A stretch of 64,000 bases of DNA from Streptococcus oralis (GTDB lineage: Bacteria; Bacillota; Bacilli; Lactobacillales; Streptococcaceae), in NCBI RefSeq assembly GCF_023611505.1, contig NZ_CP097843.1, positions 310,001 through 374,000 on the forward strand. Direction: 5' to 3'. Under the pieces are notes generated by a model. The model was not told the origin of the DNA and ran no database searches. It saw only the letters and a list, made by a program, of their open reading frames with translations. Made by a program: the position numbers and the translations under genes. Below, piece by piece: positions 4,580 to 37,728 of the stretch. Each line of letters begins with the position of its first letter. Position 1 is the first letter of the stretch.

Positions 4580-4609
4580 TTGACTTTTAGTAGTAAAATT
4601 TGGTATGAT
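4580..4609 (+). promoter_or_regulatory. Promoter of rplM-rpsI
   Basis: TTGACT at 4580-4585 and TATGAT at 4604-4609 have an 18-base spacer. An ORF that opens at 4605 lies within this promoter and cannot be the rplM start. Confidence 0.8.
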
Positions 4610-4614
4610 AGTAG

Positions 4615-4718
4615 ACGGTATTGTTTACCCCATTTGTAAGGCCCCGGAACCTTTCAAATACCCCGCGGACCGGAACATCCGCCCTGTAAACAAAAACGAT
4701 ATTCATATAGGAGAAATC
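4615..4718 (+). promoter_or_regulatory. L13-type ribosomal-protein leader
   Basis: The 5' UTR of rplM is about 100 bases, GC-rich relative to its surroundings, and has paired segments: GGTATTGTTTAC near 4617 faces the later GTAAACAAAAAC near 4686, and CCCCGCGGACCGGAAC lies between them. This layout matches the known L13 leader RNA of low-GC Gram-positives, in which L13 represses its own operon. Recognition is by position and pattern; a covariance-model search would settle it. Confidence 0.65.
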
Positions 4719-5165
4719 ATGAACAAAACTACATTCATGGCTAAACCAGGCCAAGTAGAACGCAAATGGTACGTTGTTGACGCAACTGATGTACCTCTTG
4801 GACGCCTTTCAGCAGTTGTTGCTAGCGTACTTCGCGGAAAAAACAAACCAACATTTACACCACACACTGATACAGGTGACTTCGTAATCGTTATCAATGC
4901 TGAAAAAGTTAAATTGACTGGTAAAAAAGCAACTGATAAGATCTACTACACTCACTCAAACCACCCAGGTGGATTGAAATCAATCTCTGCTGGTGAACTT
5001 CGTTCTAAAAATGCAGTACGTTTGATTGAAAAATCAGTTAAAGGTATGCTTCCACACAATACTCTTGGACGCGCTCAAGGTATGAAATTGAAAGTATTCG
5101 TTGGAGCTGAGCACACTCACGCTGCACAACAACCAGAAGTTCTTGATATTTCAGGACTTATCTAA
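4719..5165 (+). CDS. rplM: 50S ribosomal protein L13
   Basis: Large-subunit ribosomal protein, 148 residues, the usual length for streptococci. The start at 4719 was chosen because TAGGAGAAATC just before it supplies the ribosome binding site, and because the protein then begins [19 protein letters not shown] as in relatives; the longer frame from 4605 would run through the promoter and leader. Family hallmarks seen are [22 protein letters not shown] and the C-terminal [11 protein letters not shown] and [11 protein letters not shown] blocks. rpsI follows after 18 bases in the same operon, the usual L13-S9 pairing. Confidence 0.97.
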
Positions 5166-5183: not shown

Positions 5184-5576
5184 ATGTCACAAGCACAATA
5201 TGCAGGTACTGGACGTCGTAAAAACGCTGTTGCACGCGTTCGCCTTGTTCCAGGAACTGGTAAAATCACTGTTAATAAAAAAGATGTTGAAGAGTACATC
5301 CCACACGCTGACCTTCGTCTTGTTATCAACCAACCATTCGCAGTTACTTCAACTGTAGGTTCATACGACGTTTTCGTTAACGTTGTAGGTGGTGGATACG
5401 CTGGTCAAGCAGGAGCTATCCGTCACGGTATCGCTCGTGCCCTTCTTCAAGTAGACCCAGACTTCCGCGATTCATTGAAACGCGCAGGACTTCTTACACG
5501 TGACTCACGTAAAGTTGAACGTAAGAAACCAGGTCTTAAGAAAGCTCGTAAAGCATCACAATTTAGTAAACGTTAA
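5184..5576 (+). CDS. rpsI: 30S ribosomal protein S9
   Basis: Small-subunit protein, 130 residues, full length, with the basic C-terminal tail ending in SKR that reaches the P-site tRNA. It starts [19 protein letters not shown] behind AAGGAAAGGA. Downstream of rplM in one operon. The last 51 bases (5526-5576) are repeated at 14580-14630: the first 39 bases are identical and the final Ser codon is AGT here but TCA in the other copy, so both encode the same tail. This is the pattern left when an integrative element targets a gene's 3' end and brings a replacement end. Confidence 0.97.
5526..5576 (+). repeat. Left att-like direct repeat in the rpsI 3' end
   Basis: A 51-bp direct repeat shared with 14580-14630: identical over 39 bp, then 12 bp with 3 differences concentrated in the Ser codon (AGT against TCA). 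It marks the left boundary of a 9.05-kb island. Sequence downstream of the two copies differs entirely. Confidence 0.85.
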
Positions 5577-5595
5577 AACTTATTTACACTTATTG

Positions 5596-5632
5596 AAAGC
5601 ATTTCGTATCAAAAATACGGGATGCTTTTTCT
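5596..5632 (+). terminator. Terminator after rpsI (island side)
   Basis: A 14-bp stem (5596-5609 with 5615-5628, including G-T pairs) with a CAAAA loop is followed by a T run. It is unlike the terminator that follows the second rpsI end copy, so it was probably carried in by the island. Confidence 0.85.
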
Positions 5633-5636
5633 GTTC

Positions 5637-5940
5637 ACCCCAAATATTTGAACCTTGAATTTACGTTAATACGTTCCGTTACGACTGTTGGCTTTAAAAT
5701 AATTAGCTTTATCGTAAGGCTCATACCCTAAAAAGGCTGATAACTCTGCTTGAAGCAGATCGTTCATAACTGTTTCAAGGAATGAACGAAAAAATTCATC
5801 AATATCTTGCTTTTGGGCTAAGAAGTTAAGTAGTTTTGTAGTAAACTGTGTCATAGGAATAAACCTCGTTCCAGTAATGTTTCGTAACTCTACTATAACG
5901 GATTTCTTCCTGTTTGTGTTTACACGGCTTATTTTACACT
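5637..5940 (-). pseudogene. IS256-family transposase N-terminal remnant and IS end
   Basis: Minus-strand frame of 62 codons from 5854 to 5666. The protein begins MTQFTTKLLNFLAQKQDI and continues with LLQAELSAFLGYEPYDKA and NSRNG, the N-terminus of IS256 (mutator) family transposases, which are about 390-400 residues when intact. A stop follows NSRNGTY and the rest, including the catalytic DDE region, is missing. Upstream of its start, 5915-5940 (TGTTTACACGGCTTATTTT then ACACT) resembles an IS256-family terminal inverted repeat. That end abuts the hairpin at 5941. Nonfunctional. Confidence 0.8.
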
Positions 5941-5983
5941 ACCAAAAGAACTTTAGCTATTGGGTATACAAGCTAAAGTTCTC
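5941..5983. terminator. Former mleR terminator hairpin, split by a transposon
   Basis: The left arm ACCAAAAGAACTTTAGCT (5941-5958) pairs with AGCTAAAGTTCT (5971-5982). The remaining TTTTGGT of a perfect 18-bp right arm is found at 10062-10068, beyond the transposon. Joining 5983 to 10064 restores the hairpin with one mismatch. Read on the minus strand, mleR would then end K-P-K-E-L-stop inside this hairpin. Confidence 0.7.
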
Positions 5984-6033
5984 GGCTCTATAATTTCTGT
6001 AGTGGGTAAAGCCACAATAGGAATTATAGAGCC
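5984..6033 (+). repeat. ISL3-family-type end, palindromic copy 1
   Basis: A 50-bp palindrome beginning GGCTCTATAATTTCTGTAGT and ending AATTATAGAGCC, closely similar to the one at 8920-8969 that forms the left end of the IS1167-like element. It lies upstream of the P-type ATPase gene and its left flank AAGTTCTC nearly matches the flank AAGTTCTT at 10056-10063. Confidence 0.7.
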
Positions 6034-6119
6034 TTTTCTTTCAACATTTTCTGAAAAAGGAGTATAATGAGGGTGTAAATATGAAATCGCTTTAATGATT
6101 TAGAATCGAGGAAAGGATT

Positions 6120-8894
6120 ATGAGTGATTCTAGACAGAAGGGGACTACATTAGGAACCTGTGCCCCTGATCAGGTTTATCAAGTGTTGCAAACAAGTCCT
6201 CAAGGGTTAAACTCACAAGAAGTAAAAAAGAGGCAAGCAACTTATGGTCCTAACCAGTTGAAAGAAAGTAAGAAAGAACCTATTTGGTTGACCTTTGTCA
6301 AACATTTTACCAGTCTCATGGCCCTCTTATTGTGGGTTGGTGGCTTTATTGCTGTGATTTCCCATAGCTTGGAGTTGGGAATTGCGATTTGGCTGGTCAA
6401 TATCATTAATGGTCTCTTTAGTTTTATTCAAGAATATAAGGCTAGTCAAGCCACGGCAGCACTGAATAAGCTTCTTCCATCCTATACCCGAGTTCTTCGT
6501 GATGGAAAGGAAGATAAAATCCTTGCACAGGACTTGGTGCCAGGTGATTTGGTTTTCATTGAAGAAGGTGACCGTATTTCTGCAGATGGACGTTTGGTTG
6601 CTGTGACAGACTTGCAGGTAAATCAGTCTGCCCTCACTGGTGAGTCTAATCCCATTTATAAATCAGACCAAGCAGATTTGACTCCTGATAAGACTGAATT
6701 GGAATATGACAATATGGTGTTTGCAGGGACCACAGTTTCCTCTGGGTCAGGACATTTTATAGTATCTGCTATCGGTATGGAAACTGAGTTTGGACAAATT
6801 GCAGACTTGACGCAAAACCTAGCTCAGGAAAAGAGCCCACTGCAAAAGGAACTGGACCATTTGACCAAACAGATTTCGGTTATCGCAGTATCTGTAGGTC
6901 TCTTCTTTATGATTGCAGCAACACTATTTGTCCATCAGCCTCTTTCTCAAGCTTTCATCTTTGCCTTGGGAATGATTGTTGCCTTTATCCCTGAGGGGTT
7001 ACTTCCTACAGTTACCCTCTCTCTAGCTATGGCTGTACAACGCATGGCTAAAGAACATGCTTTAGTGAAGAAATTATCTTCTGTTGAGACTCTTGGAGCA
7101 ACCTCTGTTATTTGCTCAGATAAAACAGGGACCCTAACTCAAAATGCCATGACAGTTAATCATTTATGGACCTTGTCGGGTAATTATGAGGTGACTGGGC
7201 TAGGTTATGCACCAGAAGGGCATATTGAGAAGGATGGTGACCCTGTTTCTCTGAAGGGAAATGATCTCCTGAATCGTTTGGTTCGCTTTTCTCACTTGGC
7301 TAGTAATGCTCAAGTGGTTGCGCCAAGTGCTGACAATCCCGATTATACGGTCTTGGGAGACCCGACTGAAGCTTGTCTTAATGTTCTTGCAGAAAAAGCA
7401 GGTATTGATTTAAATGACAACCACAACTGGGCTCCTCGTATCAAAGAAATTCCCTTTGATTCGGATCGTAAACGAATGACAACGGTACATAGTCTCGAAA
7501 AAAGTCTGGATGGCAGTCACCATATTTCCATCACTAAGGGTGCGCCTAAAGAAGTGATGGAACTTTGCTCAGACTATTATGATGGTCAAGGAGCAATCAA
7601 ATCTATGACTGCTACAGAACGTCAAGCAATTCTTGCTGCTAACGATCAATTTGCTCGTGACGGCTTACGTGTTTTAGCTGTTGCTTATCGTCCTTTGGAA
7701 AGCGAAGATATTAGAGAAGACAAGTGGGATATGCGGACCCTCGAAGAAGATATGGTCTTTGTGGGACTTGTTGCCATGAGTGACCCTCCACGTCAAGGTG
7801 TACGTGAAGCAATTGAGCAATGTCACCGTGCCAGTATTCGCATTATCATGCTCACAGGTGACTATGGTTTGACAGCTCTTAGTATTGCCAAGAAAATTGG
7901 AATTGTAAAAGGTAACAATGCACGAGTGATATCAGGGCTTGAACTGGCAGATATGACCGACGAAGAGCTCAAAGTAGCTCTTAAAGGCGAGATTGTTTTT
8001 GCTCGTGTGGCTCCTGAACAAAAATATCGTGTAGTCAATGCACTTCAGGAACTTGGTGAAGTTGTCGCTGTTACTGGTGATGGTGTTAATGATGCCCCTG
8101 CTCTTAAAAAGGCTGATATCGGTGTAGCTATGGGGGTATCTGGAACCGACGTAGCCAAGGAATCTGCTGATATGATTTTAACGGATGACCACTTTGCTTC
8201 TATTGTCCATGCTGTTGAAGAAGGACGTGCCGTTTATCGAAATATTCAAAGATTCCTTACCTATATTTTTAATTCCAATACTCCTGAAGCTGTACCCTCT
8301 ACTTTCTTCTTGTTCTCTTTGGGGCGCATTCCTCTTCCCTTAACAGTTATGCAAATCCTAGCGATTGACCTTGGAACAGATATGATGCCCGCTTTGGGAT
8401 TGGGGGTTGAGCCACCAGAAGAAGGCATTATGGACAGGCCACCAAGACGCCTATCAGATCGTTTGTTAAATCGGCAATTATTATTAAAAGCCTTTGCTTG
8501 GTATGGTATGATTGAGTCTGTTTTGGCTATGGGTGCCTTCTTCCTTAATTATTGGGTTAATCAAGGACATCTGAATCATCTAGCTAGTTCAGGACCTCTT
8601 TATCGAGAGGCAACAACCATGACTTTGGGAGCTATCATCTTCACGCAGATTGGTATGGCTATGAATAGTCGCAAAGGTAGAGGATCTATTTTCAAAATCA
8701 AACCATTTGCAAATAAGATTATTAGTCTGGGGATTATCTTAGAAATCATTCTCTTTATTATCCTGTCCTATGTACCTCTTTTCCACACTCTCTTTAATAC
8801 AGCTCCGATTGGTTTTGATGATTGGCTCTATTTGCTCGTCTGTCCATTTATCATTATGGCTCTAGAGGAAATAAGGCACCGACTATTTGATTAA
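6120..8894 (+). CDS. P-type cation-transporting ATPase (P2 type)
   Basis: Integral membrane pump of 924 residues that couples ATP hydrolysis to cation transport. Seen in order: an N-terminal cation-ATPase domain (residues 10-75), the actuator motif LTGES (about 174), membrane motif PEGLLPTVTLSLAMA (about 295-310), phosphorylation motif SDKTGTLT with Asp334, nucleotide-binding KGAPKEVM, hinge MLTGD and VTGDGVNDAPALKKADIGVAMG, and about six C-terminal membrane segments. PEGLL rather than PEGLP resembles the Na,K-ATPase-like (type IIC) branch more than classical SERCA pumps, but the ion cannot be decided; it may be Ca, Na or Mg. It is bracketed by ISL3-type ends, which suggests it travels as cargo. 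Confidence 0.9.
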   Translation: MSDSRQKGTTLGTCAPDQVYQVLQTSPQGLNSQEVKKRQATYGPNQLKESKKEPIWLTFVKHFTSLMALLLWVGGFIAVISHSLELGIAIWLVNIINGLFSFIQEYKASQATAALNKLLPSYTRVLRDGKEDKILAQDLVPGDLVFIEEGDRISADGRLVAVTDLQVNQSALTGESNPIYKSDQADLTPDKTELEYDNMVFAGTTVSSGSGHFIVSAIGMETEFGQIADLTQNLAQEKSPLQKELDHLTKQISVIAVSVGLFFMIAATLFVHQPLSQAFIFALGMIVAFIPEGLLPTVTLSLAMAVQRMAKEHALVKKLSSVETLGATSVICSDKTGTLTQNAMTVNHLWTLSGNYEVTGLGYAPEGHIEKDGDPVSLKGNDLLNRLVRFSHLASNAQVVAPSADNPDYTVLGDPTEACLNVLAEKAGIDLNDNHNWAPRIKEIPFDSDRKRMTTVHSLEKSLDGSHHISITKGAPKEVMELCSDYYDGQGAIKSMTATERQAILAANDQFARDGLRVLAVAYRPLESEDIREDKWDMRTLEEDMVFVGLVAMSDPPRQGVREAIEQCHRASIRIIMLTGDYGLTALSIAKKIGIVKGNNARVISGLELADMTDEELKVALKGEIVFARVAPEQKYRVVNALQELGEVVAVTGDGVNDAPALKKADIGVAMGVSGTDVAKESADMILTDDHFASIVHAVEEGRAVYRNIQRFLTYIFNSNTPEAVPSTFFLFSLGRIPLPLTVMQILAIDLGTDMMPALGLGVEPPEEGIMDRPPRRLSDRLLNRQLLLKAFAWYGMIESVLAMGAFFLNYWVNQGHLNHLASSGPLYREATTMTLGAIIFTQIGMAMNSRKGRGSIFKIKPFANKIISLGIILEIILFIILSYVPLFHTLFNTAPIGFDDWLYLLVCPFIIMALEEIRHRLFD

Positions 8895-8919
8895 GAGTAA
8901 GCCGATGGCTTACTTTTTA

Positions 8920-10055
8920 GGCTCTATAATATTTGTAGTGGGTAAATCCCCTATGGATATTATAGAGCCTATTTTATTGTAGAAAAAAAGTCTCATAAGA
9001 CCTATAATGAAAAGAGACTAAACAACTCATTAGAAAGAATCATATGGAACAATTACATTTTATCACAAAACTGCTTGATATCAAAGATCCAAACATCAAG
9101 ATTGTAGATATCATCAATATGGATACACACAAGGAAATCATCGCTAAACTGGACTATGAGGCTCCATCTTGTCCTGATTGCGGAAAGCAAATGAAGAAAT
9201 ATGACTTTCAAAAACTTTCTAAGATTCCTTACCTTGAAACGACTGGTAAGCCTACTAGAATTCTTCTTAGAAAGCGTCGTTTTAAGTGCTATCATTGTTC
9301 GAAAATGATGGTCGCTGAGACTTCTATCGTCAAGAAGAATCACCAAATCCCTCGTATCATCAACCAAAAGATCGCTCAGAAGCTAATTGAAAAGACTTCT
9401 ATGACCGATATTGCTCAGCAGATGGCCATTTCAACTTCAACTGTCATTTGAAAGCTCAATGACTTCCACTTTAAGCATGATTTTTCGCATCTTCCTGAGA
9501 TTATATCATGGGATGTTGAAACAGTTAGGGAAGTGACTGTTTTAATCGGGAGATGAAGATGAGTTTCATTGCGTAAGATTTTGAAAAGCTCGATATCATC
9601 ACTGTTCTTGAAGGAAGAACACAAGCTGTCATCCGAAATCACTTTCTTCGCTACAATCGAGCTGTTCGTTGTCAGGTGAAAATCATTACTATGGATATGT
9701 TTAGTCCCTACTATGAATTAGCTAAACAGCCTTTTCCATGTGCTAAAATCGTTCTCGATCGTTTTCACCCTTCGTTATTATATTTCTGAACTCAGGCTAA
9801 AACAGTCCACTGGACTGTTTTACTCCAACACTTAAACCGTGCTATGAGTCGTGTGCGTGTTCAAATCATGAATCAGTTTGAACGAAAATCTTTTGAATAC
9901 AAGGCTATTAAGCGCTACTGGAAACTCATTGAACAAGATAGCCGTAAATTGAGTGATAAGCGTTTTTATCGCCCTAAACATCAAAAAAGAAAGGACGAAT
10001 TTCGTCCTTTCTCGAGCTTAGCTTTTCTTCAACCTACTACAGTTGACAAAGAGCC
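8920..10055 (+). mobile_element. Decayed ISL3-family (IS1167-like) insertion sequence
   Basis: The left end GGCTCTATAATATTTGTAGT opens a 50-bp palindrome (8920-8969). The right end at 10032-10055, read on the minus strand, is GGCTCTTTGTCAACTGTAGT. The 24-bp ends agree at the outer GGCTCT and the inner TGTAGT(G/A)GGT. Length is 1136 bp, shorter than the roughly 1.4 kb of intact IS1167, because of an internal deletion. Confidence 0.85.
9044..10021 (+). pseudogene. ISL3-family transposase, disrupted
   Basis: The frame starts MEQLHFITKLLDIKDPNIKI and has a zinc-binding cluster (CPDCGKQ...CYHC) and a helix-turn-helix (MTDIAQQMAISTSTV), as in IS1167 transposases. A TGA at 9449 replaces the usual Arg codon after STSTVI. 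Further stops and shifts follow near 9554, 9579 and 9787. After RFYRP (about 9972) the frame jumps to the normal C-terminus NIKKERTNFVLSRA ending at 10021, so about 100 internal codons are deleted. It cannot make an active enzyme. Confidence 0.88.
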
Positions 10056-10931
10056 AAGTTCTTTTGGTTTGTAATTAAATAAATCCTCTACTTCTGATGA
10101 CAGTGTAGCTGATTTGAGATAAGCGTAATAAACTGTAAATGTTATCTGGTCCTCCGGTATTAGAGGGATTTTTATTAAATCATCATCTTCATCAGAAAGT
10201 GCGATATCAGCCAGTAAACTAACGCCAATCCCTTTCTTTAAAAGTTCTTTAATGATGACAATGTCGTCACTCTTGAAGAATATTTCTGCCTTGTTTTGAT
10301 GCTTTTGATTAAGTAGTTCAAAAGCTTTCAGGTGAACAAAGTGTTCGTCTAAAAGTATAAAGGATTGATCTACTAAATCTTCAAAAGTGAGGGAAAGAGC
10401 AGTAGCAAGAGGATGGTTCTTAGATAAAACAACATACAGTTCTTTATGAAAGAGTTCATGTGTCTCTATTGAAGGATGATTGAGTGGTTCAATCAAGCCG
10501 AGTAAGCTCGCATCTAGTTCTCCCTTAAGGAGAAGATTTAATAATTCTACGGAGCCACCGCGGATAGGGCGCACCTTTTTTAAAAAATCAAATTCAGTTT
10601 CTTTATTTAAGACAGAGAAAAGATACTGAATGATAATAGGAGGGAATCCTACAGTAGAGCAATGCGCCAAAGAGCGATTAATTTCTTTGCGAGTAGCAAT
10701 AACCTCAGGTAAAATCAGTTCTGTATGCTTCAGAAGGATTTGTCCTTGATTAGTTAGTTTAAAGGAGCGATGTGAAGGATCATGGTGAATCAATTTGCAA
10801 TTAAAAGATTCCTCTAAGCGCTTGATGGCATAAGAAATAGATGGTTGGCTGACTTTGTGTTGTTTTGCTACTTCCGTATAGGATTGAAGCTGGCAGAGGT
10901 CATAAAAATATTGTAGATCTTTTAAATTCAT
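10029..10931 (-). CDS. mleR: LysR-family regulator of the malolactic genes (MleR-like)
   Basis: A 300-residue LysR-type regulator: N-terminal winged HTH (MNLKDLQYFYDLCQLQSYTEVAKQ, then VSQPSISYAIKRLEE) and a C-terminal effector-binding domain (residues about 90-290). Placed close to mleS and mleP, it most likely activates malolactic fermentation in response to malate, as MleR does in Lactococcus and S. mutans. Odd: the last eight residues, GSLSTVVG, and the stop come from the right inverted repeat of the adjacent ISL3-type element. The native end was probably K-P-K-E-L-stop, eight residues shorter, as the displaced hairpin at 5941 shows. Function may survive, since the change is only a short tail. 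Confidence 0.82.
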   Translation of the reverse strand: MNLKDLQYFYDLCQLQSYTEVAKQHKVSQPSISYAIKRLEESFNCKLIHHDPSHRSFKLTNQGQILLKHTELILPEVIATRKEINRSLAHCSTVGFPPIIIQYLFSVLNKETEFDFLKKVRPIRGGSVELLNLLLKGELDASLLGLIEPLNHPSIETHELFHKELYVVLSKNHPLATALSLTFEDLVDQSFILLDEHFVHLKAFELLNQKHQNKAEIFFKSDDIVIIKELLKKGIGVSLLADIALSDEDDDLIKIPLIPEDQITFTVYYAYLKSATLSSEVEDLFNYKPKELGSLSTVVG

Positions 10932-11065
10932 ATGGGCTCACTTTCATTAGTTGGAGAAGGAAAATAAGTGGAAATCACCAGATAAATACTTTTTATCCGT
11001 ATCCTACAATTTGACTATACGAGTATTCACCGGTTAAAATGTAAGTGAGTCAGGGATATCAAAGG

Positions 11066-11419
11066 TTATCTAAGATTATCTAAGATACTTTCAAAAATGA
11101 CTAACATCTTTTCTCGTTTATCAATAGGGAGCTGTTTAATCTTCATGTTGATTCTTTTGAGTGAAAGATTGTCGGTCTTATCAGAGGTTGATTCAAGGCT
11201 ATCAAAATTGAAAAATTCCTCTGGGGTCATCTCTAGGGCGACAATCACTTTTTCAAGACTGTGAATGGTCAGATTCACATTTTGGTTTTCAAGTTGATTG
11301 ATATACTTAAGCCCAAGTCCTGCTTGTTCCGAAAGTTCTTCCTGGCTCATTTTTTTCTGTGTTCGAAAATATTTCACTTTTTGGGAAATATATTGTTGTA
11401 AATAGTTTTTATTCGTCAT
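11066..11419 (-). CDS. Xre-family HTH regulator
   Basis: A small DNA-binding protein with a Cro/CI helix-turn-helix in its first half (YFRTQKKMSQEELSEQAGLG, then YINQLENQNVNLTIHSLEKV) and a helical tail without known enzyme motifs. The frame is open up to 11485, but the start at 11419 (MTNKNYLQQY) fits family length (about 117 residues); no start has a clear ribosome binding site, so it is uncertain. It lies between mleR and mleS, on the minus strand like mleR. It may tune the malolactic genes or be a leftover of the island's own control circuit; the sequence does not say which. Confidence 0.75.
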   Translation of the reverse strand: MTNKNYLQQYISQKVKYFRTQKKMSQEELSEQAGLGLKYINQLENQNVNLTIHSLEKVIVALEMTPEEFFNFDSLESTSDKTDNLSLKRINMKIKQLPIDKREKMLVIFESILDNLR

Positions 11420-11609
11420 ATAAATAGAATACAAGTTTTGCATGACAAAAAAACATCTTAAAAAATACAAAGTATTGCATAACAAACTTATATGATATTT
11501 ATTTTAATTCGGATTGCCAATTTGTATGATTAGTTTCTTTTGCTCGAAACTTTTAGTAAAGAGTGATCATTGAGAGTTTTATGAGTTCAGAACTTTATAA
11601 AATATAACA

Positions 11610-11642
11610 ACTTAAAGTGCCATTAATAATGGTGTTTTAAGT
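11610..11642. promoter_or_regulatory. Inverted repeat upstream of mleS
   Basis: In the 358-bp gap between the regulator and mleS, an imperfect palindrome (ACTTAAAGTGCCATT at 11610-11624 against AATGGTGTTTTAAGT at 11628-11642) could be an operator or weak terminator. No gene is seen in the gap. Confidence 0.45.
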
Positions 11643-11745
11643 ATAAAGAGCTTATTAGAAAATTGCCTTCGTAGACTCATTATAACATATGCGCACACGA
11701 TTGTATTTTTTAAACAACAAAGTTTTCCAAACAATTCATTTTAAG

Positions 11746-11754
11746 TGGTATAAT
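11746..11754 (+). promoter_or_regulatory. Extended -10 promoter of mleS
   Basis: TGG-TATAAT at 11746-11754 is an extended -10 with no good -35 hexamer at the usual distance, as expected for an activator-dependent promoter. AAGGAGG at 11764-11770 precedes the ATG. Confidence 0.7.
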
Positions 11755-11777
11755 AGAAGTAAAAAGGAGGTTGCACT

Positions 11778-13403
11778 ATGACTGCACATGATATTTTAAA
11801 CAACCCTTTCCTGAATAAAGGTACTGCCTTTACCTTAGAGGAGCGAAAGGAACTAGGCCTTATTGGGTTATTGCCACCTTACGTTCAAACCATCGAGGAG
11901 CAAGCAGTGCAAACCTATGCACAAATGCAAACAAAGGTCAATGATCTGGAAAAACGTTTGTTCTTAATGGAAATCTTTAATACGAACCGGACTCTTTTCT
12001 ATTACCTCTTTTCTCAACATTTGGAGGAATTCAATCCAATTGTATACGATCCAACCATTGCTGATACCATTGAAGGTTATAGTGACCTCTTTGTAGATCC
12101 ACAATATGCGGGATATCTTGATATCAATCATCCTGAAAATATTGAAGCCACTTTGAAAAATGCTGCTGGGAATCGCGAGATTCGTCTCATTGTTGTAACA
12201 GATGCAGAAGGAATCCTTGGAATCGGTGACTGGGGAACAAATGGTGTCGATATTTCTGTTGGGAAATTGATGGTCTACACGGGTGCTGCTGGAATCGATC
12301 CTTCTATGGTCCTTCCTTTAGTCATTGATGCAGGAACTAACCGTGAAGAACTTCGTAACAATCCTAATTACTTGGGAAATCGTCACGAACGGGTTCGCGG
12401 AGATCGTTACTACGACTTCATTGACCAATTTGTTCAAACAGCAGAACGTCTCTTTCCTAAACTCTACCTTCACTGGGAAGACTTCGGTCGCTTGAATGCT
12501 GCCAATATTCTTGAAAAATACCGGAAACAAATTCCAACCTTTAACGATGATATTCAAGGTACAGGAATCGTTACCTTGGGTGGTATCTTTGGTTCACTAG
12601 ATATTAGTGGTGAAAAATTAACAGATCAAGTTTATCTCTGCTATGGTGGTGGTACTGCGGGTGCAGGAATTGCTTCTCGTGTTCTTCGCGAAATGGTGAG
12701 TGAAGGTCTTTCTGAAGAAGAAGCTTATAAACGCTTCTTTATGGTTGATAAACAAGGTCTTCTCTTTGATGACATGGATGACCTAACTCCTGAACAAAAA
12801 CCGTTTGCTAAGAAACGTGCTGACTTTAGTAACGCAGACAAGTTGACTGACCTGCTTGAAGTAGTGAAGACTGTGAAGCCAACCATTCTTGTAGGAACTT
12901 CGACTCAGCCTAATACCTTCACTAAAGAAATAGTAGAGGCCATGTGTGAAAATACAGAGCGTCCGATGATCTTCCCTTTGTCAAATCCAACCAAACTAGC
13001 AGAAGCTAGTGCCAAAGATTTGATTGAATGGTCAGATGGTAAGGCTTTTGTCGCAACAGGAATTCCTGCTGATACGGTTTCTTATAAAGGTGTAGACTAT
13101 GTGATTGGTCAAGCAAATAATGCATTGATTTACCCAGGTCTTGGTCTAGGTATGCTGGCTTCTGAAGCAAGTCTTTTGACAGATGAAATGATTGGAGCAG
13201 CGGCTCATTCATTGAGTGGTATTATCAATCCAGGTCAACCAGGAGCTCCTGTCTTGCCACCATTCAAGTATGTAGCAGATGTTTCTGTTAAAGTAGCAGA
13301 AGCAGTCGCTAAAAAAGCGCAAGAACAAGGTCTTGCACGTGCTAAAGAAACTGATATGGCTAAAGCAGTTCGTGATTTGAAATGGTATCCAGAGTATAAA
13401 TAA
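11778..13403 (+). CDS. mleS: Malolactic enzyme
   Basis: NAD- and Mn-dependent enzyme of 541 residues that decarboxylates L-malate directly to L-lactate and CO2, raising internal pH. It belongs to the malic-enzyme superfamily: the N-terminal malate-binding domain has [19 protein letters not shown] and the metal-site region [10 protein letters not shown] (about residues 254-263), followed by the Rossmann NAD site [14 protein letters not shown] (about 290-303). The start ATG sits 7 bases after AAGGAGG. mleP follows after 77 bases in the same direction, the usual synthase-transporter pair. Malic enzyme would be the alternative, but the pairing with an AEC permease and a LysR regulator favours malolactic enzyme. 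Confidence 0.93.
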
Positions 13404-13480
13404 TTCATTGCTGCTGTCTATCATTCGCTAGCGACAAATTTATATGGGCTGTGGACTTAAGTAATTTAGAAAGGATACCT

Positions 13481-14428
13481 ATGTCACTCTTTTTAACCTC
13501 GATTACGAGTATCATTCCGATTATCGCTATTATTGTTTTGGGGTATATTCTTCAGGTGAAGGGATGGTTTGGAGATGCCTTTGGACCTAACCTATCTCGT
13601 TTGATCATGAATGTAGCCTTGCCAGCGTCAATCTTTGTGTCGGTGATGAAATATCTAACACTAGATAAACTAATCAGTCTTTCTGGAGGTCTCCTTTATA
13701 CATTTGTGGCCTTTATCTTGGGTTATATCGTAGCTTATATTGCAGTTGTGGTTTTCAAGGTTCGTCCAGGACGGCGAGGAACTATGATTAATACCTTTGT
13801 GAATGCCAATACTATTTTTATTGGTTTACCTTTAAACGTTGCTCTTTTTGGGGATCAGGCCCTTCCTTATTTCTTAATTTACTATATCACCAACACGATT
13901 TCCACCTGGACATTGGGCGTGTATTTGATGACGAGTGACAGTAAATCGGGTCAAAGCAAGGAGACAAGTAAATTTGACTGGAAGAAATTGCTACCAGCTC
14001 CGCTTGTAGGTTTTCTTGTCGCCCTGCTATTTTTGATTCTCCGAATCTCTATTCCAGATTTCGCAACGAATACCTTAACCTATGTTGGAAACATCGTCAC
14101 TCCCCTATCTCTGATTTATATTGGTATTGTTCTTGCTAAGGCAGGCTTGAATACCATTGCTTTTGATAAAGATACAATTGTCACCTTGGTTGGACGCTTT
14201 ATCCTAGCTCCTCTGATCATGCTTCTTGTATTGAAGTTTTTTGCCCCAAATATGGCAACAGTAGAATTTAAGACCTTTATGATTCAGTCTGCTACACCAT
14301 CTCTGGCTGTTCTCCCAATCCTTGCTAATCAAGGAAAAGGAGATGTGGAATTCTCTACGAATGTAGTGACTTTAAGTACGATTCTATTTATCGTTGTTAT
14401 TCCAATATTACAAACTTTATTAGGATAA
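13481..14428 (+). CDS. mleP: Malate permease, auxin efflux carrier family
   Basis: Membrane transporter of 315 residues with about ten hydrophobic segments, of the AEC family used by lactic acid bacteria to exchange malate for lactate. The frame opens at 13451, but the ATG at 13481 (MSLFLTSITSIIPIIAIIVL) has the ribosome binding site GAAAGGA just before it and gives the usual length. Signature stretches are SRLIMNVALPASIF and MIQSATPSLAVLPILANQG. It is cotranscribed with mleS. No strong terminator follows; a weak AGGGGA/TCCCCT pairing lies near 14437-14475. Confidence 0.88.
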   Translation: MSLFLTSITSIIPIIAIIVLGYILQVKGWFGDAFGPNLSRLIMNVALPASIFVSVMKYLTLDKLISLSGGLLYTFVAFILGYIVAYIAVVVFKVRPGRRGTMINTFVNANTIFIGLPLNVALFGDQALPYFLIYYITNTISTWTLGVYLMTSDSKSGQSKETSKFDWKKLLPAPLVGFLVALLFLILRISIPDFATNTLTYVGNIVTPLSLIYIGIVLAKAGLNTIAFDKDTIVTLVGRFILAPLIMLLVLKFFAPNMATVEFKTFMIQSATPSLAVLPILANQGKGDVEFSTNVVTLSTILFIVVIPILQTLLG

Positions 14429-14579
14429 GAAGGAAGAGGGGAGGATTGAAAGTTATGCGTTAAGAAATTCCCCTATTTAAAAAATATTGATTCAAATTTT
14501 ATGAAATAAATAAGTGGTTTTAGTTCTGAAAAGCCTTGATATTACGCTATTTTTAGTCCAAATGAAACTCATACTTTCC

Positions 14580-14630
14580 AAACCAGGTCTTAAGAAAGCT
14601 CGTAAAGCATCACAATTTTCAAAACGTTAA
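14580..14630 (+). pseudogene. Displaced rpsI 3' end (right att-like repeat)
   Basis: It encodes only [16 protein letters not shown] and stop, the S9 tail, with no upstream gene body. It is identical to 5526-5564 over 39 bp and keeps the same protein with TCA for Ser. The natural-looking rpsI terminator follows at 14655. It represents the original chromosomal gene end pushed away by an insertion of about 9 kb. Confidence 0.85.
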
Positions 14631-14654
14631 TCAATACGATACTATCAACGTTTC

Positions 14655-14692
14655 AAAGCACTCAAAAGTTTACCTTATGGGTGCTTTTTTCG
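14655..14692 (+). terminator. Terminator of the displaced rpsI end
   Basis: AAAGCACTC (14655-14663) pairs with GGGTGCTTT (14679-14687), followed by T residues. It probably served rpsI before the island inserted. Confidence 0.75.
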
Positions 14693-14737
14693 TGTTTTTT
14701 TTGAAAAGTTTACCTCAAAGTTCACCTTATTTTTACC

Positions 14738-14902
14738 TTATTGTTTTAGAGACTTTAAAGCAAATTTTCCAACAGCCATTGGAATCACATTAGAAGTGTT
14801 AACATAGGTCTTAGTTGTAATCGTATCACTATGGGTGAGCGCTTCAGAAATTTCTTCAAGCGAAACTCCAGCTTGTTTTGCTGGTGTGGCGCTTGAACAT
14901 TA
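14738..14902 (-). pseudogene. Tyrosine integrase C-terminal remnant
   Basis: Minus-strand codons from about 14902 down to the stop at 14738 read FKRHTSKQAGVSLEEISEAL, then THSDTITTKTYVNTSNVIPM, the C-terminal catalytic end of phage/ICE-type tyrosine recombinases: a decayed form of the RHTH...GVSL region, the GHS-like HSD, and the nucleophile Tyr in TKTYVNT. The N-terminal three quarters are absent. It lies just outside the right rpsI repeat with its 3' end facing it, so it probably came from an earlier element that used the same site. Confidence 0.8.
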
Positions 14903-15037
14903 TGCTTATCCATAGTATTTTGTGTTATAATGTAGAAACTATACAGAAAATAAAAGAATCTCTTTAAATTCTGTAAATTTCACTTTGCGTAAACATGAGA
15001 AAATTTGAATGTAGATAATGATGGGAGAGGATTTGTA

Positions 15038-15550
15038 ATGATCAGTTTAGAGCTGTTGTCTGAAGAAAATAGTCTAGACGTCTATTCTTTTGAAAAAGAA
15101 AATCGAGAGTATTTTGAACGAAATTTACCTCCTAGACCAGCTAACTTTTTTGATTTAGAAGGTTTTAAAGAAATTACAAGGGAATTGTTAACGGGACAAA
15201 GGAATCGTGCTGTTTACATGCATCTTATTAGAAATTCGCAAGGTGTTATGGTTGGGAGAATCAATTTAAGTGTCTTAGAGAGTGATCGAAATACAGCAGA
15301 ACTTGGGTATAGGATTGGGGAAAATGTTAACAATTTAGGTTATGCCAGCGAAGCGGTTAAACTCGTTTTAGAAAAAGCCTTCACGACTTATGATTTCAAT
15401 AGAATCATTGCAGGAACGGCAACAGGTAATCTAGCCTCTCAGAGGGTGCTTTTAAAAAATGGCTTCACCTTTAGTAGGGTTATAGAAAATGACTTACAAA
15501 TTCATAATGAGTGGGTTCATACAGCAGTATTTGAGATAAGGAGGCCATAA
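15038..15550 (+). CDS. GNAT-family N-acetyltransferase (RimJ-like)
   Basis: A cytoplasmic acetyl-CoA-dependent acetyltransferase of 170 residues. The frame opens at 15005, but the ATG at 15038 follows GGGAGAGGA and gives the family length. Seen: a central GRINLSVL strand, then AELGYRIGENVNNLGYASEAVKLVLE, the acetyl-CoA-binding P-loop region, and IIAGTATGNLASQRVLLKNGF, typical of RimJ/RimL-like proteins that acetylate ribosomal protein N-termini or small molecules. The substrate is unknown. It stands alone amid remnants of mobile elements and may be a passenger gene. Confidence 0.85.
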   Translation: MISLELLSEENSLDVYSFEKENREYFERNLPPRPANFFDLEGFKEITRELLTGQRNRAVYMHLIRNSQGVMVGRINLSVLESDRNTAELGYRIGENVNNLGYASEAVKLVLEKAFTTYDFNRIIAGTATGNLASQRVLLKNGFTFSRVIENDLQIHNEWVHTAVFEIRRP

Positions 15551-15575
15551 TATCATCATTTTCAGTCTACTAACA

Positions 15576-15840
15576 AGGTTAATGGATTTAGTTCTGTATT
15601 GCACAGGGCTAAGTCCTTTTAGTTTGACTTTAATTCGTTTGTTGTAGTAATTTATGTAATTGACAATCTCCTTTTCAAAACCATAAAACATCTCTAATTA
15701 TAAAATATCAAAGAAAGATTCCATCATACCATTGTCTGGATTGTTACCCTTACGTGATATGGATGGCTGAATTTCTTTTTTCTCTAAAAATTGATAATAA
15801 GAAATGTGCTGATATTGCTAGCCTTATCGCTGTGGGAAGA
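15576..15840 (-). pseudogene. IS3-family transposase (OrfB) C-terminal remnant
   Basis: The minus strand reads PDNGMMESFFDIL, stop, LEMFYGFEKEIVNYINYYNK and then KLKGLSPVQYRTKS, the C-terminal rve end of IS3/IS150-type OrfB, including the catalytic Glu region MMESFF. A stop interrupts it after DIL and the frame decays upstream of SRKGNNPDNG. Not functional. Confidence 0.8.
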
Positions 15841-16009: not shown

Positions 16010-19000
16010 TTAGTCTTTGAAATTCTTTTGGAAGATGAGGAGAGACAAGATAGAAGTAATGACTGCCAAGAAGAGGAAAGCAGTTGCTTCTTGTTCCCCA
16101 GTTGCAGGGAGTTCTCTTTCCTTGTCTTCTTTGACCGTAGCTGTAATAGGAGCTTTTTCATCTTTTGCTGATGAATTATCTGTTACGGCTGGAGTCGGTT
16201 TTTCAGTCTCTCTTGGTAGAACATACTCAGGAAGAGTCACAACTGGTGGCGCTTCTGTACCAACTGAGCTTTGTTTGCTACCTACCTCAATCACTCGATC
16301 TTGAGCTGGAGTTGCTTCTGTTTGGAGAACCTTGCGATTATCACCGTCCACTTCAACATACTCAACTAAAAGACCGTCTTTTCCTTCTGATAGAACTTGC
16401 TCTTTTCCTTTGTCTAATTGTGGGTTTTCGTGACGAATAGTCTTGAACGGTACTACCTTATTGACGATTTCCAAGCTTGGAAGTGTAAAGACAAGGTCTT
16501 TAACCCCTTCCTCAGGACTTGAAGAAGTGATTGGTTTCTCAGGTTGAACTGGAGTTTCCGGTTGCGTCGGTTTCTCAGGCTGAACTGGCTTTTCCGGTTG
16601 AGCAGGTTTTTCAGGCTCAGCAGGTTTCTCAGGTTCAGCAGGTTTCTCAGGTTGAACTGGTTTTTCAGGCTGAGCTGGAGTTTCCGGTTGCGCTGGGGTT
16701 TCAGGTTGAGCTGGTTTCTCAGGTTGAGCAGGTTTTTCCGGTTGCGCCGGTTTTTCAGGCTGAGCAGGTTTTTCAGGCTGAGCTGGAGTTTCCGGTTGAG
16801 TTGGTTTTTCAGGTTGAACTGGAGTTTCCGGTTGCGCCGGTTTTTCAGGCTGAGCAGGTTTTTCCGGTTGCGCCGGTTTTTCAGGCTGAGCAGGTTTTTC
16901 CGGTTGAGCAGGTTTCTCAGGTTGAACTGGACTTTCCGGTTGCGCTGGGGTTTCAGGTTGTGCTGGTTTCTCAGGTTGAGCAGGTTTCTCAGGTTGAGTC
17001 GGATTTTCAGGCTGAGCAGGTTTTTCCGGTTGAGCAGGTTTTTCCGGTTGAACTGGAGTTTCAGGCTGAGCAGGTTTCTCAGGCTGAACTGGTTTTTCAG
17101 GCTGAGCAGGTTTTTCAGGCTGAGCTGGAGTTTCCGGTTGAGTTGGTTTTTCAGGTTGCGCCGGTTTTTCAGGCTGAGCTGCTTCGAGCTTGCTGATTTG
17201 TTCGAGAGCAGTTTCTAGCGCTTGATTGACTGCTTCCTGAGTCTTAGCTTCTTGGATTGCAGCAATGGCTTGGTCAGCAATTTCTAATAATTTCTTCTTA
17301 GCTTCCTTGTTGGATCCAAGCTCACCGACTTTTTTCTCGATGGCTTCTGTCAAGCTAGCCATGGCCTTATTGTATTCGATTTCCGGCTGTTTCGGTTCAG
17401 CAGGCTGTTCTGGACTAGGTCCTTCGCCAGGTTTTTGGTAGTTTTCGTCCTTGCTTAGGATATCTTGTAAGGCACTGACCGTTAACATGACTTCTTGAAC
17501 ATCCACAGCATCAGTACTGAGTTGGTTCCTCAATTTTTCTAGATTTGCTTGGAAAGCTTGGCGTGCAGTAGCCGTATTTTTCAAGCCTGCTGAATCAAAG
17601 TTTGACAGATCATCTTTCCATTTAGAGATAGACTGGATGATATCTGCCTTGCTATAGAGTTCGCTACCTTCGCCACGAGTGATGAATTGGTCTACCTGAA
17701 TACCGATATTTCGAGACAAATCGTTTCGATCAGGATCGAGTTGAAGGGTGACTGCGTGCAAGTTTTCGTCCAGACCTTTTAGGCTAACCAGAGTTTGATT
17801 GCCTTGGCGTTGGGCTGCACGACCGCTAAAGTATTTCTTACCATCAATAGTCGACGCATTTCCCATGCCATCTTGATAAGGAACTTCTTTGCCATCTAGG
17901 AAGACTTTGTAGATACCATGATTTGGATCAACATAGCCCTTGATATCAAGACCAGTACCGTAGAAGTATGCTGTTACGGTTGTCTTTTTCTTTTGCTCAT
18001 CAGTTAAGCGACCAAAGGAAGCCCAAGACTCCGTCTTTTGGTACTTGTCTGCGGAATTGGTTTCATGGTGCCAGCCAGGACTGTAATCCAACTGACTAGC
18101 TTGGTCATCATAACTTGTTTGATCCTTGATCAGCAATTCAGCTTTCATCACTTGGATGGTTGCATCGGTAGCGAAACCGAGCAGGGCACCATCAGAAACA
18201 GAAGTGAGCTTGGCTTTAAAGTCAAAGATAGAGTCGGCTTGTTCTGTAAAGTCAATCGTTGGGATGGTCACAGTCTTTTCTGTTTCTCCATCTTCAAAAG
18301 TCACATCTTGAGTTGTATCTTGGTAAACTTTACCGTGAACTCCAGTTCCAGGTTCTGTGATGAAGCGAACAGTAGCAGTTCCCTTGCTTCCACCAACACG
18401 TTTAATTTTAACAGTGACTGGTTTTCCTTTTTCGACTTCGTAGTTAGTAGATTCGAGTTCAAACATTCCCTTGCTATCATTGTTTAGGGTGTAGATCCCT
18501 TCTGTAGCAATTGGTTCGCCTGTTTTATTTACAAGAGTAATAGTGTGTTGGCCTGGTGCTAAATCACCTGTCTCAAAGACTTTTTGGCTGCGTTTACGGC
18601 TTGCGTTCTTAGTTTGCACATCCGCAACTTTTTGGCCATCAACGTAGACGGACATTTCTCCATGACCTGGGTCGACTGTAGAGACGACATAGGCCTTGGT
18701 TCCTGTGAAGGTATAGCTTACTTTGGCATCTTTTTGATTGGTCCACATAGAAGTACCACGAACACCTTCAGATTCATTGTACCAAGTTGTTCCGGCTGTA
18801 TCTGCCGTTGTGTTTGAGTGGTATTCAAGTCCAAGAGGGTAGCCATCTGTCTTTTCAATGCTGCTTGGTGTCTTGTAGACTGAGAAGTTGGTCAAGATTG
18901 GAGTTGCTTGAGCACCAGTGATGGTTACACGGATTTTTTGTGCCTCTACAGGTTTACCTTGAATCAAGCGACGGTAACCAACAGTTGAACCTTCACCGTA

Positions 19001-22000
19001 AGTCACCCAGCGACCGTTGATTTCGACTTCAATCTTGAAACCAGAGATACGTTGACCTTTGGCGATGTCTTCTTTGAGTTCGACAACGTCAAAGCGTCTC
19101 TTTTGTCCTAAATCGACTGTAAAGCTACCGGTTGTGGCATCATTTGAGAGCGCCCAGCTAGTATCATCTTTACCGTCAGTCAGGTGACTTTCCTTGTAGA
19201 GGTGGTTCTGACGAGTAGAACTTGCTGTTACAGTGGCACCTTTCGCAAAGTCAGTCGCATACATTTGGTCTAGAGTTGCCTTGAATTCCTTCAAGCGAGC
19301 TACATCTGCATCTGCGAATTTTCCTTCTTTGTTTGGTGGAATATTGAGAAGGAGAGGGGTTCCACGACCAACAGACTTGAAGTAGATGTCCATCAACTCT
19401 TTGAGTGATTTCGGCTGTTGATTGTCATGGTAGAACCAACCAGAACGGATCGAAACGTCAGCTTCCCCCACAGAGTACATATCACCATCTGGGTCACCAT
19501 GGTTGAGGTATTCGTTTTTCACATCGTCTGTGATGTTGGCTCTTTTCACTTTATGCCATACAGGGTCACCTGCGATACCACGTTCATTTCCGATCCAGCG
19601 AACGCTTGTCGGTTGAGCAGAGAAGATGGCGATATCTCCTTCAGCTTCTTTGATATATTTGAACCACTCATCAAAAGTATAGGTTACTTTTTGGGCACCG
19701 CTACCACGCGCACCGTCCATCCAAACCTCGATAAATTTCCCTTTATTTCCGTATTTTGGATTTCCAAGGATTTCTTTTAGTTGGTTGAGATAGTATTGGT
19801 TGTATTCTTTTTCGGTTGCAACATGGTATTTTGGATGATTGGCATCCCATGGTGACAAGTAAACACCCATATTCATGTCATACTTGCTAGCAGACTTGGA
19901 AACTTCTTCGAGAAGGTCACCCTTTCCATCTTTCCATGGGCTAGCAGCTACAGTATGATCTGTATACTTAGAAGGGTAAGCAACGAAACCGTCGTGGTGT
20001 TTAACAACCATAATGGTTCGTTTGAAGCCTGTTTCCTTCAGAGTGCGAATCCACTGGTCAGTATCCAAGTTGGTTGGATTGAAGTATCGGGGGTCTTCTT
20101 TCCCATTTCCCCATTCAGAATTGGTATAAGTGTTCATTCCGTAGTGGATGAAGGCCGCCAATTCTTCCTTGTGGTAATCGAGTTGAGCCTTGCTTGGAAG
20201 AGGCCCATGATTGCCAATCTCGGTTTCCTTATCTTCTGGATGAGCTACTGGTGGTGTTGGAGTCGTTGGATTAGCTGTATTAGCGACTGGCTCATATTCA
20301 AAGACGACCTCATTCACCCCTTTTTGCTGGATAGTTGCTTCCAAGCTAACTTTTACTGGACGGTAGCCAGCAATGTCTTTTGCATGGAAGGTGTTGACAA
20401 AGGAAACGTCATACTCTTGGCCGTCATTGTTATCAACTGTCGCTTCCGCTAGTTCAGTAGTGGTTCCTTTTTGACGGTAGTAAACTTTGAAGGAGCCTTT
20501 GTTGACTTTATAGACCACCTTGATGACACGTGTACCGGCAGGCGCTTTGCTGACAACATTGTGCTCTTCAGCCCAAGCATCTTTTAGTTGTTTATTGACT
20601 GCTACGCCATCAATGGATACAATTTCGTATTTGTCTTTATTCTTCTGATAGAAGTCCGTTTTCTCGATTTCTGACTTAAAGTTATAGTTGAATTCTGCTC
20701 CGACACTCGTCTGTTCGATAAAAGTATCATTATCTTTGACTGGATTTCCTTCTTCATCTTCGTGTTGAATAACCACACGTCCGTATTCAACTCCCTTGGT
20801 TAAGGTAGCAATCCCATCTTGGTTGAAGGAATATTCGTTGCTTCCGATAACAGCTGTTTCGTTCCGAAGCATACGCCCCTCATCGGTAAAGTAGTAACGA
20901 TTTCCGTTATCTCCTTGGTACCAGCCTTTCACACCATATTTGGCAATCATGTCCTTAACCCATTTCAGTTGTTCAGGTGAAAGGACGAGTCCGCCACCAA
21001 AGCGATCCTTTTCAGGAACACCATTGTCAACGGTTCCGTGTTGGTGAACACCGAGAACTTTTCCTTGGCTATCTACAATCCCACCACCAGACAAACCAGA
21101 TACAGAAGTGGTTTGGTAGGTGATACCGGTCGTTCCCTTATCATCATAAGACTCAACAGATCGGATAGTTCCGTCTGCCTTGTAAAGTTGGCCAGCTAGG
21201 ATAGGCTGTTTTAACTCTTTCGAGCTCGAGTCAGTTGGGTAGCCAATCGTACTAATGGATTCTCCTGGTTGATGCGTCTTGTGATCTGCTAAAGGTGCAA
21301 AGGTTGCTGCTTTGTTTGGGCTAGCAATTGGAAGAGGAGTAGGAGCTTCTATAAGAGCAAGGTCGTTTTTATAGCCTTTTCCAAACTCCTTCTTATTCCA
21401 GAAATGGATATCCTTTTCTCTAAATAAAACCGTAGTTCCAGAAGATGGAAGTGAGTTTTTCTTTTCGCTGTTTGAACCAACGTTATAGTAGAACTGGGCA
21501 GATTTCCCACCACGAATGTGACCTTCGCCAGTTTCTTTATTTGCTTCTAGGAAGTTATGAGCAACAGTAAGGATCAGGTTAGGGGCTACAAAGATACCAG
21601 ATCCTGAAACGAGGTAACGTTGCTCTCCTGCATTGTAAGTGCTGTAAACCATAGTAGCAGCAGTTGCAGGTTGTCCCTCGTAGTTGATGTGTTTGAGGTC
21701 TTGTCCACCGTTAATAATAGCACGGTTTCCATTCTCAGTTTCTTTTGGAGCTTCTTCCTTATCCTTTAGAATGCTCTTAGTTTCTACTTTTGGACTAGCT
21801 TTCTGGTCAACGATAGTAGTCGTGTCGAGTCCTTTGACAGGTGTGTCAGGATAGGCACGGTCCTGGATGTCTTCAGGGAGCAAATCAGCATTGCTGGTAT
21901 CGGCAACAGGTGTTTCTTGTTTTTCAGTCTCTACTCGGCCTTCTTCTTTGACTGGTTCAGCCTTGGTCTGTTCTATATCTGTGACTTGCTCAATCTGTTT

Positions 22001-37709: not shown

Positions 37710-37728
37710 AGAAATCTCCTTTAGCATT

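Follow-up and report, generated by a model that had tools for sequence, protein, structure and literature searches.

The 3′ end of rpsI, the gene for ribosomal protein S9, is followed in the Streptococcus oralis genome analyzed here by an array of inserted DNA. The window, a stretch of 64,000 nucleotides from this 2.06-Mb single-contig genome (G000:C1:310001-374000), holds rpsI and, in order, a P-type ATPase unit rearranged by insertion sequences (IS), a malolactic unit that has lost its left end, and an acetyltransferase unit that has lost its right end (Table 1). The last 51 bp of rpsI recur behind the malolactic unit, and the two copies of this tail are identical at 48 of the 51 aligned positions (94%). 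Their first 39 bases are the same, the three differences make up one serine codon (AGT or TCA), and both copies encode the same S9 end; an exact tail match of 39 bp in 2 Mb is far above chance expectation. Each copy leads into a hairpin with a U run (5574-5635, −16.6 kcal/mol, z score of −5.3; 14628-14705, −17.2 kcal/mol, z score of −3.2), and none of 200 shuffled sequences folded as well for either hairpin. Neither hairpin was listed as a terminator by a simple pattern scan, so the assignment is based on the fold and the T run. The initial annotation had described the 51-base recurrence at 14580-14630, the 39 identical bases, the synonymous serine codons, and a terminator behind each copy, all of which the alignment and the folds bear out.

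TABLE 1 Features of the rpsI locus, in window coordinates
Feature	Position	Strand	Evidence or remark
rplM, upstream of rpsI	4605-5165
rpsI (S9), target gene	5184-5576	+	Open reading frame (ORF); blastn to rpsI of relatives
Attachment site 1, rpsI-adjacent copy	5526-5576	+	Core AAACCAGG plus S9 tail
Left end type A, terminator supplied by first unit	5577-5635	+	Fold z −5.3
IS256/Mutator-type transposase fragment	5666-5854	−	Pfam PF00872, E 2.6e-10
IS end, probably ISL3 type	5984-6033	Not assigned
Cation P-type ATPase, 924 amino acids (aa)	6120-8894	+	Pfam PF00122, PF00689
Second IS end	8921-8970	Not assigned
Decayed ISL3-family transposase	9044-10055	+	Pfam PF14690, PF13542 on 9044-9448
mleR-like LysR regulator, 300 aa	10029-10931	−	Pfam PF03466, PF00126
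XRE-type regulator	11066-11485	−	Pfam PF01381
mleS, malolactic enzyme, 541 aa	11778-13403	+	NCBIfam NF041582, 963.6 bits versus cutoff of 850
mleP-like malate permease, AEC family	13451-14428	+	Pfam PF03547
Right end R1 of malolactic unit	14467-14579	+	Conserved core 14535-14567, beginning 45 bp ahead of tail
Attachment site 2	14580-14630	+	Right boundary of malolactic unit, left boundary of next unit
Left end type B plus terminator	14631-14705	+	Fold z −3.2
Tyrosine integrase C-terminal stub	about 14740-14898	−	Translation
GNAT acetyltransferase, third-unit cargo	15005-15550	+	Pfam PF13302
Transposase fragment, rve_2 domain	15494-15691	−	Pfam PF13333, E 9.2e-12; truncated right edge of third unit

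When the two window flanks are joined by script, the resulting sequence from rpsI to the acetyltransferase gene matches S. oralis subsp. tigurinus AZ_3a (L259) without interruption over 1,325 aligned bases (93.4% identity, 3 gap positions). It also runs through the junction in S. infantis UC6950A (L234; 84.9%, 41 gap positions) and S. sanguinis 2908 (L283; 83.7%, 38 gap positions). The predicted empty site, in which rpsI continues straight into position 14631, is thus present in AZ_3a, and the uninterrupted match upholds the earlier claim that the interval is inserted DNA. For the 5.2 kb upstream of rpsI, the closest of the named relatives compared belong to S. oralis, with 93.7% identity to AZ_3a (2.8 kb aligned) and 92.3% to S. 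oralis DD15. In S. oralis BCC10, rpsI is followed by a malolactic unit (95.5% identical to that of the window) and then by the acetyltransferase unit. The locus therefore displays a ladder of occupation: none, the malolactic unit, and, in the window, the malolactic unit plus the ATPase unit.

The malolactic unit, with the gene order mleR-xre-mleS-mleP, recurs by itself among streptococci. A near-full-length match (window position 10074 or earlier to at least 14618) was found in 28 other genomes of the 284 searched. There are 18 mleS-bearing units that extend from tail to tail (17 plus the window), and 12 of them measure 4.78 to 5.00 kb, 8 ending in R1 and 4 in another right end. These 12 have rpsI tails at both ends, the attL and attR flanks expected of a cis-mobilizable element (CIME); the window unit has lost its left tail. 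Homology to the malolactic unit begins sharply at window position 10074, and the regulator has 300 aa rather than the 292 of intact units, its last residues coming from the IS side; the decayed ISL3-type transposase has replaced the left end of the window unit, tail included. The malolactic unit lies directly 3′ of rpsI in L044, L118, S. oralis BCC10 (L236), and S. oralis DD21 (L264). A regulator-enzyme part, 92 to 94% identical, occurs without the permease and R1 at G001:C1:757731-760983 and in about eight other genomes.

No integrase was found in the malolactic unit by Pfam searches of its four proteins and by four integrase seeds, with no separate relaxase model run, and no parent integrative and conjugative element (ICE) or integrative and mobilizable element (IME) was found. 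By gene content, the unit fits the definition of a CIME as an element lacking integrase, relaxase, and conjugation genes. Classing it as an IME or ICE was rejected, as such an element has an integrase of its own and the only trace of one here is a stub outside the unit.

The ATPase part of the array is of a different kind. The segment from 5984 to about 9013, with the ATPase between IS ends, forms a single block that is 99% identical, in the same order, in genome G027 and is present at 83 to 93% identity in five others (G212, G233, G167, G219, and G218), where the matches are confined to the block. The likeness of the IS end at 5984-6033 to an end beside an ISL3 transposase in L165 points to the ISL3 family. 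In G027 the pieces lie on two contigs that presumably adjoin, and roughly 33 kb separate rpsI from the type A left end; type A sequence also stands behind other tails in L049 and L057. The nearest NCBIfam model for the ATPase is of calcium type, with a score below its cutoff. Pfam and NCBIfam matches confirm the P-type ATPase and malolactic genes that the initial annotation had placed in the interval, as well as its IS remnants (IS256 type at 5666-5854, ISL3 at 9044-9451). At 8920-9031, one IS end coincides with an Rfam match to Srn266 (minus strand, 122 bits), an RNA family that may be the end of a common IS. Two further Rfam matches are an L13 leader ahead of rplM (4617-4696) and, beside the IS256 fragment (5853-5915), a family of S. 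pyogenes antisense RNA.

Behind the second tail lies the third unit, whose type B left end is found directly behind rpsI in many relatives. Only the left 1 kb of this unit remains in the window; L125 and L148 carry it whole (1.93 kb) at 85% identity (L148:9595-11525). In the window, its right end was lost near 15590, where the rve_2 transposase fragment begins. Twenty-eight residues of the integrase stub in this unit (14813-14896) are 79% identical to the integrase of L039. The array runs beyond the boundary originally drawn at 14630, and the proposed loss of the integrase is partly right, a C-terminal stub persisting outside the interval from which it was said to be missing.

These findings bear on the initial interpretation of positions 5577 to 14580 as one former 9-kb integrative element that had lost its integrase. 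The interval is bounded exactly by the two tails, and the empty site falls at the same points, but its malolactic part is a tail-bounded unit elsewhere and in L236 is the only unit between rpsI and the acetyltransferase unit, its ATPase part is an IS-bounded block whose close copies in five genomes match the block only, and the array extends beyond 14630. The two parts were seen together in this order only in G027, which may derive from the same rearranged ancestor. The single-element interpretation is largely refuted on these grounds, and we consider it very improbable.

The anatomy of the units was defined from 103 sequences (2 stretches of the own genome, 20 rpsI stretches, 80 chosen for R1, and the window), which contain 194 tail matches and 102 tail-to-tail units, 64 of them ending in R1. 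A unit extends from just past the 8-bp core AAACCAGG up to the next core. At its left end it carries the final 14 S9 codons with the stop codon and a terminator, and at its right end a short conserved stretch whose spacing to the core is constant; in 95 of 115 R1 sites, the R1 core begins exactly 45 bp ahead of a tail. For the variable tail columns, shuffle-corrected mutual information reached 0.69 bits with the class of the downstream left end and at most 0.04 bits with the upstream context (81 unique rows of 190 tails, 109 being dropped as duplicates or for a context outside the named classes). Tail variation thus tracks the right-hand unit, so that the crossover lies within or beside AAACCAGG and each unit brings the rest of the S9 codons at its left end; the serine codons of the two window tails differ because these tails belong to different units. 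That an attachment site at the 3′ end of rpsI restores the S9 tail, as first proposed, is borne out.

At least two tail matches occur in 26 of 36 genomes of the genus (the own genome included), often in tandem arrays 3′ of rpsI, and a second tail lies within the available DNA in 31 of 80 named rpsI loci found by protein alone. A second copy that proved to be a repeat present at many loci had been named in advance as evidence against the initial annotation; that is what was found, and it speaks against a single element while the attachment site stands. Spread of the tail as a general repeat without genes was rejected, as its 5′ side is a fixed right end and its 3′ side belongs to a fixed set of left ends. 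R1 was found in none of 51 genomes from other genera of the family, compared with 27 of 66 genomes of the same genus in the same search. Carriage of the malolactic right end by phages or plasmids was likewise rejected: viral_contigs contained no exact R1, a right-end query matched 3 of 50,697 phage records, in the tail only, and the channel unit described below matched six Lactococcus plasmid records over only 41% of its length (the DUF389 gene). Phage records OR846602, OR846900, and OR849524 (Enterococcus, Listeria) match the rpsI tail over 52 to 56 bp at 91 to 92% identity, suggesting that integration at the end of rpsI may occur in other genera.

The own genome contains five tail copies, at rpsI, at window position 14580, and at C1:120578, 843199, and 844623 (the last 80% identical), of which a stricter tail pattern recovered three. 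At C1:120578, a tail with a type C left end lies directly 5′ of a type I restriction-modification locus, in which Pfam identifies HsdM and HsdR (L006:8579-17595, G000:C1:120578-129594), and the right end of this unit was not found. The other two copies belong to a second site, a small host gene near rpsP in which AAACCAGG occurs naturally. Here, a 1.5-kb unit (L007:9200-10674, G000:C1:843199-844673) encoding an XRE regulator and a membrane protein without a Pfam match is followed by a gene-less unit of about 0.2 kb, and the host gene continues after the two tandem units. A match was obtained in 108 of 197 genomes, and the best 30 loci were compared: the site is empty in 9, with the exact core in 6 of these, holds a tail exactly at the core in 9 (the own genome included), and is deleted or otherwise changed in 12. 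The second site shows site-specific insertion at a short, 8-bp core.

The second site also weighs on the view that units spread chiefly by natural transformation and homologous recombination through shared neighbors, with rplM-rpsI as the left-hand and a common unit as the right-hand neighbor. Natural competence is a trait of mitis-group streptococci, the identity of rpsI among several species (98 to 99%, in a wider core of 81 to 92%) offers a good left arm, and tails and R1 supply repeated short homology. Such a route nevertheless does not account for the initial entry of units into an unrelated host gene at an 8-bp core or for the rpsI-adjacent units with unrelated right neighbors. Transformation may well help to disperse units once they reside at rpsI, but as their principal means of dispersal it is unlikely.

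Evidence for movement comes from units that are far more similar than the genomes holding them. The channel unit has a 2.5-kb body (TMEM175-like and ion-channel proteins, DUF389). This body shows 99.96% identity between S. xiaochunlingii and strain F0442, against 80.8% for their core upstream of rpsI (6.8 kb); for HPH0090 and S. timonensis, the corresponding figures are 99.92% and 85.9% (7.4 kb). Cadmium units are 99.6 to 99.8% identical against a core of 81% in several pairs, and pairs with a core aligned over only about 1 kb beside rpsI were not counted. The channel unit is found in 14 complete copies at varied array positions, 6 of them adjoining rpsI, and 16 of the 64 R1-ended units lie directly beside rpsI. 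At L089:14212-16718 (G000:C1:142211-144717), the own genome has a channel-type unit with an R1 right end near a gene that we take to be rpmF; it is divergent over its leftmost 200 bp and is preceded by regulator sequence of the cadmium type.

The tails themselves add to this picture. All 28 distinct rpsI-adjacent tails encode an intact S9 end, as required. Displaced tails differ by 279 synonymous and 83 nonsynonymous codon changes (in relatives that are not independent), and the tails at loci set apart by hand as second sites differ by 22 and 24, respectively, with 1 of 16 intact; this pattern suggests that the tails of the arrays were recently at rpsI. These data can be set against the proposal that the units are only relics, long decayed, inherited vertically, and occasionally deleted. 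Units without an integrase, IS damage in the window, an own genome with nothing beyond a stub, and the failure of about half of the displaced tails to encode an intact end would all accord with such a history, but near-identical units in species with an 81 to 86% identical core, varying array order, and the excess of synonymous changes do not, leaving this proposal improbable.

With four seeds of one family, a full-length rpsI-family integrase was found in none of the 64 R1-ended units, whereas the 38 others include 4 with a full-length integrase and 15 with a stub; a more sensitive ORF list revealed a stub in at least one R1-ended unit (L125). Directly after rpsI in the 80 named loci, the integrase is intact in 29, a stub in 15, and not found in 36, several of these loci ending soon after rpsI. 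No integrase-bearing unit ending in R1 was seen among the 102 units, nor, in the named loci, among the 10 first units that bear an integrase and are followed by another tail, a search that covers elements no longer than the stretches examined. One array (L057) holds both an integrase-bearing unit and a malolactic unit, which is co-occurrence only. A box, TTGAT(A/T)TTA, lies about 44 bp ahead of the core, as TTGATTTTA in IME right ends and as TTGATATTA in R1. In the own genome, a query with one rpsI-type integrase returned only the 28-residue stub; the earlier description of the element as now fixed fits this strain, in which the array is probably stranded.

Taken together, the 3′ end of rpsI is a site-specific docking site with a tandem array of independent units, which are most likely CIME-like. 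The unit adjoining rpsI completes the S9 gene and insulates it by a terminator. A tyrosine integrase of the rpsI-specific IME/ICE family, brought by an incoming element, would move the units, either in trans or, once accretion has occurred, jointly with the integrase element. Cargo, but no integrase that could be found, is carried by the malolactic unit and by several other units of relatives, in keeping with the published idea of a CIME.

Several observations weigh against this reading. An integrase never occurs in R1-ended units, so no enzyme can be assigned to R1, and the shared box is a weak link; at least 26 of 43 ends that are neither R1 nor rpsI lack the box, with a weak match at the same register in some. 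The four seeds of one family could miss an unrelated recombinase, Pfam covered only some of the cassette ORFs, and no excision or circle was seen. Only 54 of 105 distinct displaced tails encode an intact S9 end, and many units look inactive. Twenty of the 115 R1 sites have no tail, some being internal deletions rather than second sites. These tail-less sites retain about the first 8 to 13 tail bases, and of 13 examined, 5 have what is presumably rpmF within 1.5 kb downstream, the others being internal deletions or other loci. Finally, R1 was itself one of the criteria by which loci were picked, so that its share is inflated, and related genomes do not count as independent.

Elements at rpsI have precedents, and ICEs, IMEs, CIMEs, and microCIMEs at this gene are already published (PMC7563491). 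The available text of that study describes integrase-less, att-flanked CIMEs of 1.2 to 13 kb in tandem at S. salivarius rpsI (16 of the 37 composite islands there); they are always farthest from the target gene and, by the method used there, occur only beside ICEs, dICEs, or IMEs, cadmium genes lie mostly in CIMEs, and microCIMEs without genes measure 130 to 220 bp. The units described here share this anatomy, and the short second-site unit of the own genome resembles the gene-less ones. They differ from what that text reports in recurring as the same unit across species, in having a defined common right end, in adjoining rpsI (as 16 of the 64 R1-ended units do), and in forming arrays without other elements.

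The accessible account of IME Tn7089 of S. pneumoniae BM6001 (PMC10383233) gives as its att site the last 52 nt of rpsI, with attL and attR differing by four bases, and reports circles and a restored attB. Attachment at the rpsI end and a difference of a few bases between the two sites are common to both systems, but the int, xis, rep, and ftsK-like genes given for Tn7089 were not found in the malolactic unit. IMESag-rpsI of S. agalactiae integrates at rpsI and excises as a circle and, unlike the malolactic unit, encodes a relaxase and its own recombinase, according to the part of the report available (PMC5090054). Tandem accretion of IMEs at rpsI, rpmG, and rplL, with mention of decayed neighbors, is described in the portions seen of PMC5357655 and PMC5704250, which focus on elements with an integrase and a relaxase and do not display the decayed ones. 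Among the open-license papers searched for a malolactic unit at rpsI and for rpsI cassettes or CIMEs, none described such a malolactic unit.

Integron gene cassettes are small, integrase-less cargo units joined in arrays at repeated sites, and in these respects the rpsI arrays resemble them. The joints here are, by contrast, double-stranded 51-bp rpsI tails rather than attC hairpins, each unit starts with a terminator, so that a common promoter is not expected, and the integrase of relatives scores 26.5 bits against integron models with a cutoff of 265. Identity with an integron cassette array was rejected, as neither attC hairpins nor IntI was found. A looser parallel, in which oral streptococci keep a stable pool of integrase-less cassettes with a common right end, each bearing the S9 tail and a terminator, that enter rpsI, are lost from it, and are reshuffled there by the integrases of passing IMEs and ICEs and spread between species as independent units instead of decaying remnants, is possible but less likely than not. 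As judged from sequence comparison, the units are best read as CIMEs that behave as recurrent mobile cassettes.

Apart from the array, the window encodes three very long surface proteins resembling YSIRK/LPXTG glycan-active proteins (16010-22150, 32586-37727, and 51638-56362); the YSIRK signal of the first scores above its cutoff, and the other two are known from ORF reading.

What was suspected to be a single island becomes a readable system with an exact core and exact ends. Small blocks of cargo for malolactic fermentation, cadmium export, ion channels, glutathione synthesis, and restriction-modification can be swapped at an essential gene with no harm to that gene. With strains named for the empty, the singly occupied, and the multiply occupied state, the movement of integrase-less units in trans, a question still open for CIMEs, becomes directly testable.

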